64,000 bases of DNA from Bacteroidota bacterium. Lineage in GTDB: Bacteria; Bacteroidota; Bacteroidia; Chitinophagales; Chitinophagaceae. This document shows, in pieces, positions 9,401 to 62,217 of the stretch (position 1 is its first letter; every line of letters starts with the position of its first letter). The notes below the pieces were generated by a model, which saw only the letters and a program-made list of their open reading frames with translations, had not been told where the DNA came from and searched no databases. Location: positions 62,001 to 126,000 of the forward strand of contig SYIK01000001.1 of assembly GCA_005798905.1 (NCBI GenBank), written 5' to 3'. A program made the translations under genes and the position numbers.

Positions 9401-10864
9401 TCATTTTTCTAAAATTTCAAACATTTCTTTCACAACTTCCTTGTCGTCAAAATGAATTCTCACGCCATTTATTTCTTGATACTTTTCATGCCCTTTTCCT
9501 GCTATAAGTATCATGTCTCCTACTGATGTCAAACTAATCGCTGTTTTTATTGCTTCTTTTCTATCGACAATTGAAATAAATTTTTTCTTTGCAGTTCCCA
9601 TAATTCCCGCTTCCATTTCTTTAATAATTATTGCAGCATCTTCAGTTCTTGGATTATCACTTGTTAAAATCACTTTATCACTTTTCGAACAAGCTATTTC
9701 TGCCATCAACGGACGTTTGCTTTTATCACGATCGCCGCCACAACCAACAACAGTCAACACATTTTCATTGCTTTGTTTTAATTTATTAATTGTTACTAAC
9801 ACATTCAACAATGCATCGGGAGTATGTGCATAATCGACAATTGCAATTATTTTATCTTTTGGAGAAATTAAATATTCAAACCTTCCTTCGGCGCCGGTCA
9901 ACATGCTCAAACAGCGAAGCACTTCATTTTTTTCTTCGCCCAAACAAATTGCAGTTGCATATACAGCCAACAGATTATATCCATTGAATTCTCCTATCAT
10001 TCTAAAATGCACTTCTTGATCGTTCACCAACATTTGTAAACCTGCTCGACTATTTTCTAAAATTTTTCCTTTAAAATTTGCGGTTGATTTTAAACTATAA
10101 AGATATTTTTTAGCCAATGTGTTTTGAAGCAAAACTGCACCGCGCTTATCGTCTGCATTGCTTATTGCAAAAGCGTTTGACGATAACGAATCAAAAAACA
10201 TTTTTTTCACTCGGATATATTCTTCAAATGTTTTGTGATAATCTAAATGGTCGTGCGAAATATTGCTGAACACGGCTCCGGAAAATTTCAACCCCGAACT
10301 CCGATGCTGATGAATGGCATGCGAACTATTTTCCATAAACACATGCGTACAATTTTCTTGTACCATTTGTTGTAACAAATTATTCAAGCTAATTACATCA
10401 GGCGTTGTTTGTGTTGCAAGCAAACTTTGTTCTCCAATTCTGTTTTCCACAGTGCTTATCAATCCACATTTATAACCCAATGAAGTAAAAAGTTTGTACA
10501 ACAATGTGGCGATTGTCGTTTTTCCATTCGTTCCGGTAACTCCAATTAATTTAATTTTTTCGGATGGTTTTTGAAAAAAATTATGTGCAATAGTTGCAGC
10601 AGCCACAGCACTATTTTCTACTTGCACAAAAACAACTTCATTCGGTTTTACTTGTGGAATTACTTCGCAAACAATAATACTTGCTCCCGACTGTATTGCT
10701 TTTTCTATAAACAAATGTCCGTCAACAGCCACTCCTCGAACTGCAACAAATAAGCTGTTTGCAATTATTTTTCGCGAATCAATTTGTACAGAACTAACAA
10801 GTAGAGTTGATTCTCCCACTTGCATTTTTACTGAAACATTATTTAATAATCCCTTCAACAACAT
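9401..10864 (-). CDS. murE: UDP-N-acetylmuramoyl-tripeptide synthetase MurE (meso-DAP type)
   Basis: Cytoplasmic ligase adding the third stem-peptide residue. It has 487 residues. The P-loop GVTGTNGKTT is at about 108-117 and SHDHLDYH lies mid-protein. The substrate-selecting motif DNPRTED begins at about residue 403; DNPR is the established signature for meso-diaminopimelate rather than lysine, so this organism should have DAP-type peptidoglycan, agreeing with lysA at the right edge. It is 22 bp downstream of ftsI and 27 bp upstream of mraY. Confidence 0.96.
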   Translation of the reverse strand: MLLKGLLNNVSVKMQVGESTLLVSSVQIDSRKIIANSLFVAVRGVAVDGHLFIEKAIQSGASIIVCEVIPQVKPNEVVFVQVENSAVAAATIAHNFFQKPSEKIKLIGVTGTNGKTTIATLLYKLFTSLGYKCGLISTVENRIGEQSLLATQTTPDVISLNNLLQQMVQENCTHVFMENSSHAIHQHRSSGLKFSGAVFSNISHDHLDYHKTFEEYIRVKKMFFDSLSSNAFAISNADDKRGAVLLQNTLAKKYLYSLKSTANFKGKILENSRAGLQMLVNDQEVHFRMIGEFNGYNLLAVYATAICLGEEKNEVLRCLSMLTGAEGRFEYLISPKDKIIAIVDYAHTPDALLNVLVTINKLKQSNENVLTVVGCGGDRDKSKRPLMAEIACSKSDKVILTSDNPRTEDAAIIIKEMEAGIMGTAKKKFISIVDRKEAIKTAISLTSVGDMILIAGKGHEKYQEINGVRIHFDDKEVVKEMFEILEK

Positions 10865-20310: not shown

Positions 20311-20619
20311 TCAAAATGAAACAGACAAATTGAGTTGTCCATCAAGTCCTTCACGAATTATTCGCATCAGGGTTGAAAGCCGGATATCGCTTGCATTATT
20401 TTCAATTCTTGAAATATAAGATTTTGTTGTGCCGCACTTTGACGCAAGTTGTTCTTGTGTTAATTGTTTTTTCTCTCTCATTTCTGAAATGAGAACACCG
20501 AGTTTGAACGCTTCGTATTCTTGTTCATACTTATCCCGTTTTGCAGTTCCTCGTTTGCCGTATTGACTTTCTAAATGACCTGCAAACGATGTTAAATTTT
20601 TATTTGATTTCTTTTTCAT
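20311..20619 (-). CDS. XRE-family antitoxin (HigA-like)
   Basis: Helix-turn-helix protein of 102 residues. The HTH lies at about 51-78 (LTQEQLASKCGTTKSYISRI), the standard XRE/Cro fold. It starts with ATGA overlapping the stop of the upstream toxin gene by 4 bp, the toxin-first order typical of higBA-type modules. It would neutralise the toxin and repress the shared promoter at 20959-20966. The exact antitoxin subfamily cannot be fixed by eye. Confidence 0.88.
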   Translation of the reverse strand: MKKKSNKNLTSFAGHLESQYGKRGTAKRDKYEQEYEAFKLGVLISEMREKKQLTQEQLASKCGTTKSYISRIENNASDIRLSTLMRIIREGLDGQLNLSVSF

Positions 20620-20954
20620 TGTGATATTGTTTTTTTTAATTTCTCTGCTAATTCAATTTCATTTTTTGGAGCTTTCTGCGACTTCTTCTGAAATCCGTTC
20701 AACAGAACAACAAGTTGCCCTTTGTCAAAGAAGCAAAACACCCTGAAGATGTTTGAACCTACTTCAACACGAATTTCATAAAGCGCATCAGAATTTTCAA
20801 CATGTTTAAAATACTTTGTCGGTACTCTTTCTAATTCCGAAATCAACTGCAATGTCCAGTTGAATTTCTTTTGCACCCCCTTAGTTTGTTCGTTAAAGAA
20901 GTCTAAGTAGTAATGCTTGTAGTAGAAAATTTGTCTTTCAAAGTTTTTACCCAC
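20616..20954 (-). CDS. RelE/HigB-type toxin (phage-derived Gp49-like family)
   Basis: Protein of 112 residues with the pattern of the Gp49/HigB-like RelE superfamily: aromatic N-terminal helix (YYKHYYLDFFNEQ), LYEIRVEVGSNIFRVFCFF in the central beta-sheet and GFQKKSQKAPKNEIELA toward the C-terminus. The members known are ribosome-dependent mRNA endonucleases. The only workable start is GTG at 20954, because no ATG precedes the conserved region. A perfect -7 element ends 4 bp before that GTG, so the mRNA may be leaderless. Confidence 0.87.
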   Translation of the reverse strand: MGKNFERQIFYYKHYYLDFFNEQTKGVQKKFNWTLQLISELERVPTKYFKHVENSDALYEIRVEVGSNIFRVFCFFDKGQLVVLLNGFQKKSQKAPKNEIELAEKLKKTISQ

Positions 20955-20966: not shown

Positions 20967-21031
20967 GCTAATGAGATAACAATATGTATAATTTATTTTT
21001 ACTAAAAAGGCATTGCGAATCATAAAAATTC

Positions 21032-21046
21032 GTCCGCTTCGCGGAC
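21032..21046 (-). terminator. GC-rich hairpin downstream of the DUF1566 gene (terminator or DGR cruciform)
   Basis: Perfect 6-bp inverted repeat GTCCGC-TTC-GCGGAC, very GC-rich against an AT-rich background. It lies 26 bp after the stop codon of the DUF1566 gene and is followed on the minus strand by GAATTTTTA. It can act as an intrinsic terminator; DGR targets in other systems also carry a hairpin just after the variable region. Confidence 0.6.
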
Positions 21047-21072
21047 TTTTAAATAGTTAAATTGCTAAATTG

Positions 21073-21815
21073 TTAAAAAGCCCGAACTGCACGCACATAG
21101 CTTGCGTTGTCCTTGCCGTCGTAGTAGTTGGCTTTACCACTGGCGAAGTCGAAGTACCACGCGAAGTTATCGTAGTCCTCCGCACTACTCCAATAGGCGC
21201 CGCGGGTAAAACCACCAACAACGGTTTTTTTTAAGTACAATAAATTTAACTCGTGTTTGGATGGTAAATACCAGTCGCCATAGGTAATGCCGCTAACTGT
21301 AACTGAATAATCGGCACAAACTTTGGCGGCAAAATTTCCTGCCTGGTTATCTGCTATTTGTGTGGCTACTATTAATGCCGTATTCATTGCACCCGCATTC
21401 AATCCATCGCCAGTAGTACCAGTAAATCTATTAGTTCCATTATACCATTGTATACCCGATCCACTATTTTGGTCAGCCGTGGCTGCTATTAACCCGTGCT
21501 GCCCGTTGTCATATACATAAAACACAATACCGCCACCGTAGCTTTCTCCTATATAATGTACCGTAGAATACCAGGCTGTACCATTATAAACCTGAAAAGA
21601 TTTGATGGTAGTGTTATAAATAGTAAGCCCTTCTGCAGGTGTTATTAAATTTCTTTCTGAAGGGTCATCCGTGGTGGTAAAAATCCTTTTGTAGTGCTGC
21701 TCACATCCAACTGAGCAGATGCAGCGGGTGTTGCCTTGCCAATACCTACTTGGGCATTTACATTAATGCCGGTAAATAGCAAAAGAAGGAATAAGAATTG
21801 TGTTAACTGTTTCAT
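21073..21815 (-). pseudogene. Secreted DUF1566/Lcl-type protein with frameshift; candidate DGR target
   Basis: Two frames together encode a secreted protein of about 247 residues. The 5' part starts at ATG 21815 with a signal peptide (MKQLTQFLFLLLLFTGINVNA) and VGIGKATPAASAQLDVSS, then FLPPRMT, a common Bacteroidota surface-protein start. A single missing base in the CCC run at 21662-21664 (one more C restores MTPSERN) shifts the frame to a stop. The 3' part continues as PAEGLTIYNTT..., GGIVFYVYDNG, GDWYLPSKHELNLLY, and ends YVRAVRAF, the DUF1566/C-type-lectin-like fold. The longest ATG-started fragment is 21073-21525. It could be a true pseudogene, a phase variant or an assembly error. The 3' end has unusual codon use (see the variable region entry). 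Confidence 0.8.
21076..21195 (-). other. Candidate DGR variable region (VR)
   Basis: The final 35 codons before the stop, counted from the Glu codon at 21180, contain 18 codons ending in C; 14 of the 17 Asp/Asn/Tyr/Phe codons there are GAC/AAC/TAC/TTC. Elsewhere in this AT-rich window these residues mostly use T-ending codons. Runs of NNC codons at the 3' end of a DUF1566/C-type-lectin gene, ending VRAVRAF, are what adenine-directed mutagenic retrohoming from an AAC-rich template produces. No reverse transcriptase, accessory gene or template repeat is in the window, so diversification would be in trans. Confidence 0.62.
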
Positions 21816-61734: not shown

Positions 61735-62217
61735 ATGCGTCACGGAGATAAAATAAAAAATTTAAGTAGAACAAAATCGCACAGAGATGCGTTATTGAGC
61801 AATCTTACCATTGCATTAATTACCAACAAGCGTATTGTAACTACAGTTGCAAAAGCAAAAGCATTGCGTGTTTATGCAGAGCCTTTGTTTACAAAAGCAA
61901 AACAAAATACTACGCATCAGCGTAGAATTGTATTCAGCCATTTACAAGATAAAGCGGCGATTACAGAATTATTTAGCACCATTGCTGAAAAGATTGCTGG
62001 TCGTCCTGGTGGCTATACTCGAATCATCAAATTGGGTGCTCGCTTAGGCGATAATGCTGAAATGGCAATGATTGAATTGGTTGACTTCAATGAAATTTAC
62101 GGAAAAGGTAAAGGCGAAGTAAAAGATACTGCAAAGAAAACTCGTCGTAGCCGTAGTAAACAAACAACTACTGACGAAACTGTGGAGCCTACAACTGAAG
62201 AAAACAAAGCCGAATAA
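61735..62217 (+). CDS. rplQ: 50S ribosomal protein L17
   Basis: 160 residues, longer than the E. coli protein (127) by an acidic/basic C-terminal extension ([23 protein letters not shown]). The core has [24 protein letters not shown] at the start and [23 protein letters not shown]. Last gene of the operon, followed by an intrinsic terminator. Confidence 0.96.

Follow-up and report, generated by a model that had tools for sequence, protein, structure and literature searches.

A probable relic variable region of a lost diversity-generating retroelement in a Chitinophagaceae genome

The domain formerly called DUF1566, now Lcl_C, is the most common target domain of diversity-generating retroelements (DGRs) according to PMC6642488, and the published DUF1566 targets described there were found beside a template repeat (TR) and a reverse transcriptase (RT). 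In BPP-1 a hairpin past the variable repeat (VR) is required for efficient homing, and the hairpins of the phage DGRs in that paper have stems of 7-10 bp and 4-nt GRNA loops (PMC3240598). Incomplete or degraded DGR loci, in which a target has a damaged or missing RT alongside, are described in PMC3521204 and PMC10907252. The literature already covers targets of the DUF1566 kind, hairpins past the VR, remote targets and damaged DGRs (PMC6642488, PMC3240598, PMC3521204, PMC10907252). The locus that we describe here has, like the BPP-1 type of target, a GC-rich hairpin shortly past its VR. Unlike the published DUF1566 targets, it has neither TR nor RT beside it, and unlike the degraded loci, whose genomes are described as carrying another RT, it lies in a genome in which we found none. 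Our literature search, which was limited and is weak evidence of absence, returned no published case of genome-wide RT loss with VR footprints, a hairpin leader and a stub of the avd gene.

The window, by which we mean the whole stretch of 64,000 nucleotides that was analysed, spans positions 62,001 to 126,000 of contig SYIK01000001.1 (G000:C8:62001-126000 in our numbering), in an assembly of 1,856,540 bases and 19 contigs that is rated 99.68% complete. The features of the locus are as follows:

21076 to 21195, minus strand: variable repeat, NNC-rich codons surrounding a fixed AlaTrp, with the C-terminal end YVRAVRAF (codon counts, aligned copies)
21073 to 21660, minus strand: 3' portion of the target gene, a frame of 195 codons and a stop that encodes the Lcl_C (DUF1566) domain, on the 3' side of a frameshift (Pfam match, structure model)
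21645 to 21815, minus strand: 5' portion of the target gene, a frame of 56 codons that begins with the ATG at 21815, encodes the signal peptide and runs into a stop, on the 5' side of the frameshift (three-frame translation)
21018 to 21072, minus strand: leader past the VR, with homologues between target and avd in three DGR cassettes, L143, L144 and L145 (DNA alignment)
21032 to 21046, minus strand: hairpin, 26 nt beyond the stop codon, with a 6-bp GC-rich stem and a GAA loop (hairpin scan, folding)

The domain encoded by the 3' part of the gene matches Pfam Lcl_C (PF07603, DUF1566) at 41.7 bits against a cut-off of 34.9, and its structure model (pLDDT 90.9) has a C-type-lectin fold on structure comparison. 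The C-terminal domain of Legionella pneumophila Lcl (PDB 8q4e) has the same fold (Z 16.4, rmsd 3.1, 128 residues, 34% identity) and C-type lectins match at Z of about 7 to 10; classical DGR variable protein structures are absent among the fold matches listed. Lcl recognises glycosaminoglycans, according to PMC11162425. The likeness of the window protein to it is one of predicted fold. The domain frame extends to 21076, with its stop codon at 21073-21075. Read from the ATG at 21815, translation halts at the stop in 21645-21647, and the conserved domain carries on in another frame, so that the window gene is frameshifted near 21650-21665 in the assembly. All the conserved residues of the domain are retained, which counts against a relic and suggests that the frameshift is either recent or an error; it may be a sequencing error. 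Directly downstream of the target gene, at 20311-20954 on the minus strand, a Gp49/HigB-like gene is followed by an HTH gene, likely a toxin-antitoxin pair. An Rfam scan of the window returned nothing beyond one tRNA.

An earlier note on this DNA had singled out the NNC-rich 3' end of the gene, and the enrichment is real. The last 36 codons contain 18 NNC and 8 NNT codons. Among the two-fold codons that we scored for a C or a T third base (Asn, Asp, Tyr, Phe and His), 14/17 end in C there, versus 10/39 in the remainder of the same open frame (Fisher p = 1.1e-4) and 619/3213 (19%) in 36 other window ORFs that do not overlap and have 200 codons or more (binomial P = 3.6e-8). Not one of 6877 sliding windows of 36 codons with at least 8 two-fold codons equals 14/17 or reaches 18 NNC codons (the maximum is 12), which rules out ordinary codon bias as the cause. 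Before its last 36 codons the gene is ordinary in composition, and the bias is limited to the 3' end; a bias running over the whole gene, named in the note as grounds for giving up its reading, is not what we find.

The same pattern extends to homologous targets. In 93 aligned copies (90 named rows and 3 from this genome), variable columns have a set third base, mostly C and in a few T, the pattern that AAC and AAT codons in a template would give. The named rows come from 76 of 79 named loci, the other three having been left out by the row filter; some rows have a mis-cut VR start (L143, and others in which the last [WF][ST]S falls inside the VR) and were kept in the counts. Across the 90 named copies the third base varies less than both the first and the second in 15 of 19 highly variable VR columns versus 6 of 31 elsewhere, and the VR is richer in C than the rest of the gene in 69 of the 84 copies that have the six two-fold codons required. 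Divergence over all pairs at the first, second and third codon positions is 0.31, 0.26 and 0.50 upstream of the VR and 0.53, 0.52 and 0.55 within it; the VR has thus lost the usual third-base excess, and its even values are in themselves not decisive. (For the two further copies in this genome, B and C below, taken separately, the column filter left 0 usable pairs.) We also note that three MAGs named for different samples (L105, L110 and L112) have a nearly identical VR (TENTDNTAWFWHFGTGGHLFTGK), as if it were fixed.

Relatives of the target at E <= 1e-5 are present in 25 of 195 genomes of the host family, this one included. In one of these, Chitinophagaceae bacterium UBA4857 (genome G103), an RT adjoins the target on a 5814-base contig (L144, identical in its letters to L073 and to G103:C14) in the order target, avd, TR, RT, and the avd matches Pfam bAvd at 81 bits against a cut-off of 40. 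The window locus is like this cassette in having an Lcl_C target, a VR at the 3' end, a fixed AlaTrp, a VRAVRAF end and a leader and hairpin of the same build. It is unlike it in that avd, TR and RT are unbroken in UBA4857, whereas none of the three is whole in the window's genome. At 3 of the 79 named target loci (L143, L144 and L145, all on Bacteroidota contigs) there is an RT in the stretch examined; many of the named-locus contigs are short, so the absence of an RT at the others says little. Only the UBA4857 cassette is unbroken: the L143 RT matches over 221 of 396 residues only, and in L145 avd lies in two frames and stops interrupt the RT. The breakage of two cassettes out of three fits decay and leaves the odds of the readings discussed below unchanged.

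Over the best 80 bases, TR and VR differ at 20 adenines and no other base in L143, at 18 and none in L144 and at 18 and one in L145, with a few further non-adenine changes outside those 80 bases. The window VR mismatches the L143 TR at 17/41 adenines and 10/55 other bases, the L144 TR at 20/43 and 12/53, and the L145 TR at 20/42 and 13/54, an excess at adenines in every case (p 0.011-0.014). To judge indirectly, from codon bias, the pattern in homologous copies and relatives' TRs, the 3' end of the window gene carries the footprint of adenine-directed substitution. The 10 to 13 non-adenine differences count against a relic, and the window VR's own template is none of the three TRs. The identification of a DGR-type variable region in a DUF1566 target, made in the earlier note from the letters of the window, is borne out by the homologues beside avd, TR and RT, by the adenine-only mismatches in two of them and by the hairpin leader that they have in common.

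The variable-region feature extends downstream of the gene, where the earlier note had not recorded the DGR-type hairpin that we find past the stop codon and that is part of it (GTCCGC-GAA-GCGGAC, 21032-21046). In a search against the three cassettes only, the leader that contains it aligns with the target-avd stretches of L145 (E 1.3e-8), L144 (5.4e-7) and L143 (1.9e-6), and the homology ends shortly after the hairpin. Among 88 of the 90 targets (two were omitted for want of a stop after the match), 11 have a GC-core hairpin within 60 nt after the stop, versus 8 of 602 other ORFs (p = 2.6e-6), and GNA triloops number 8 in the targets and 0 in the other ORFs; this controlled comparison supersedes a looser rule, applied without control, that gave 29/90 targets. 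The median C fraction of the VR is 0.69 in hairpin-bearing targets (n=10) and 0.50 in hairpin-less ones (n=72). A hairpin stands downstream of the VR here as in BPP-1, with a stem and loop that differ from the phage consensus: given the 7-10 bp stems and GRNA loops of the phage elements in PMC3240598, the 6-bp stem and 3-nt GAA loop make it a variant. The z score of its folding energy is -2.8, and that of the 4-bp hairpin of L144 itself is -0.7, which is not unusually stable, so the case for the hairpin leans more on position and homology than on energy. This genome has 7 hairpin-like matches, versus 4 for the reversed pattern; only that of the window has 2 mismatches, the others having 3, and one of these, on contig C19, sits at the end of an ordinary gene.

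Searches of the window's genome for DGR machinery yielded neither an RT nor a TR. An RVT_1 profile search returned 0 matches (the same search was positive in 4 of 14 control genomes), and the UBA4857 RT as query returned 0 at E <= 10 (it finds its own genome at 8.8e-275). The window VR as a DNA query found itself, a paralogue (copy B) and seven short matches at E >= 0.5, and no TR; the UBA4857 TR found copy B alone, whereas in G103 it recovered its own TR at 100% and the VR at 85%. Neither the RT, nor the template repeat, nor the avd of a complete DGR cassette was found in this genome. The earlier note had held that the region acts in trans at present, and that the lack of an RT in the genome would speak against this; a genome-wide search has yielded neither RT nor template in a 99.68% complete assembly, subject to assembly gaps, and present action in trans is not supported. 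TR/VR-like repeats can drop into the gaps between 19 contigs, and this counts against a relic.

The UBA4857 RT matches 16 of 394 genomes, among which G103 is the only one of the 25 target-bearing family genomes, and an RVT_1 match of some kind (RT type not assigned) occurs in 6 of those 25. Two genomes with many target copies, G010 (8 copies) and G074 (5 copies; 90% complete), have no RVT_1 match; their matches to the UBA4857 TR below E 1e-5 are all on target copies, and their VRs include both C-rich and ordinary ones. In a genome of the same genus as the window's (G093, contigs C201 and C217) RVT_1 matches fall in frames of 974-1281 residues, which is long for a bacterial RT, and contamination is possible.

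The genome contains two further Lcl_C copies, both of which are without the leader. Copy B (C1:53303-53908) is intact, at 246 aa, and has C-ending two-fold codons at 11/14 in its VR part vs 10/38 elsewhere; it mismatches the L144 TR at 18/43 adenines and 6/53 other bases (p = 6e-4). Copy C, on contig C7, is frameshifted, so that frameshifts are present in 2 of the 3 Lcl_C copies; it has no C-bias (4/11 vs 6/14), which counts against a relic, and a weaker adenine excess against the TRs (p 0.025 to 0.12). We do not favour the window gene being a recent duplicate of copy B, since a 96/98 branch separates the two when the tree is built without the VR, although its bootstrap is not settled. With the two apart in that tree, the C-bias was either gained at least twice or retained from an old ancestor.

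A second target bears on the question of decay. The sole avd match in the genome is a stub of 35 residues (C18:41400-41504, 46% identity, E 1.2e-4), which is 66% identical to the start of the L143 Avd and which, taken alone, lies below every Pfam and NCBIfam cut-off, a point against a relic. It stands behind the genome's one PF09603 (FSMP) gene, an intact target of 277 aa with an N-terminus of the same kind as that of the window gene, and between the two is a hairpin with one mismatch. The FSMP-target leader is like the others by eye only, its DNA alignment to L143 (E 1.5e-6) spanning avd codons. Neither the remainder of avd nor an RT follows in the surrounding stretch examined, and the FSMP VR as a DNA query found itself and 12 short matches at E >= 0.07, and no template. 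Its C-bias is small (5/12 vs 17/43), which again counts against a relic. The shortened avd behind this second target suggests a formerly present DGR that later decayed.

Orphan targets are also found in other genomes. The leader homology breaks off some 35 to 290 bases past the stop in L146, L119, L155, L112, L158, L151, L116, L101, L156, L109 and L140. Altogether 14 orphan copies (12 named, 2 in this genome) were recognised by leader/avd homology, and 13 of them, all except L146, extend past the hairpin position; this figure is to be read knowing that the copies were recognised through that same stretch and that the stem is imperfect in several. In L140 (HGW-Bacteroidetes-6, 10570-10840) an avd frame of about 78 codons runs directly into the last RT residues (KFEMKTK), and the joint lies on the 9-base repeat AAATTTGAA, found at two places in L144, one within avd and the other at the end of the RT. 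The joint is thus, to judge by these letters, the apparent scar of a deletion between short repeats that would have removed the rest of avd, the TR and the RT, and L140 would exemplify the loss of a DGR core with its target left behind. We note that some 1835 bases beyond the stop of its target L152 has a 30-base piece that is 87% identical to the L145 RT tail (E 9e-5), perhaps another scar.

We also looked at viral loci. Within at most 6 kb on each side, a DGR RT accompanies this target at 0 of 80 of them, and DGR RTs related to that of UBA4857 occur on viral contigs at 6 loci. In three of these contigs (L217, L218 and L220) the RT is 35-59% identical to that of UBA4857 and the targets are of other kinds; their TR/VR mismatches at adenines and at other bases number 14 and 0 in L217, 7 and 0 in L220, and 14 and 1 in L218.

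We consider it likely that 21076-21195 is a relic variable region left after loss of the DGR core. On this reading 21076-21195 would be the VR of a former DGR target and 21018-21072 its post-VR hairpin leader. A DGR RT, in an ancestor or in the donor of the gene, would have copied an AAC/AAT-rich template, mutating adenines, and the mutated copy would have homed into the 3' end of the lectin-domain gene, giving codons that vary while their third base is set, in most cases to C. The TR and RT would later have been lost from the lineage, so that the region is now frozen and drifting. What we infer is that a DGR was once active, here or in a donor lineage, in what order its parts were lost, and that their absence is genuine and not due to a gap. 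It is very improbable that there was no DGR history at all and that fast-diverging loop positions merely coincide with C-rich codons arising from codon choice or local base composition. The same positions do vary without C-bias in some relatives, such as several of the G010 copies, and VR third positions are not less divergent over all pairs. Against this, each of the columns with most amino-acid variation has its own set third base, the third-base excess seen upstream is lost in the VR, the same target and leader occur in DGR cassettes, and composition is ordinary up to the last 36 codons.

A live remote target, in which an RT and TR that are hidden by an assembly gap, carried by an unbinned plasmid or phage, or present in some strains only still diversify the VR in trans, is unlikely. 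The well-preserved C-bias and hairpin of the window copy, its intact domain residues, the related RTs at 6 loci on viral contigs and the trans action on remote targets reported in PMC10907252 would all suit it; the genome, however, has yielded no RT, no TR and only a stub of avd at 99.68% completeness, the window gene is frameshifted, and the 80 viral loci with this target have no DGR RT within the stretch of at most 6 kb examined on each side. More doubtful still, in our view, is that the target, hairpin and avd stub of variable length form a spreading unit, whereby RT-less orphan cassettes across Bacteroidota would retain the hairpin and await the visit of a mobile element whose DGR rewrites them in trans, with the window locus as one docking site.

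The locus also cautions against taking a DGR-like variable region as evidence that a DGR is live. If the window locus is indeed a relic, then the VR codons persist, as does the post-VR hairpin, after the RT has gone, so that the loss of a DGR would be legible from genome sequence alone, and the gain and loss of targeted hypermutation could be counted across genomes.
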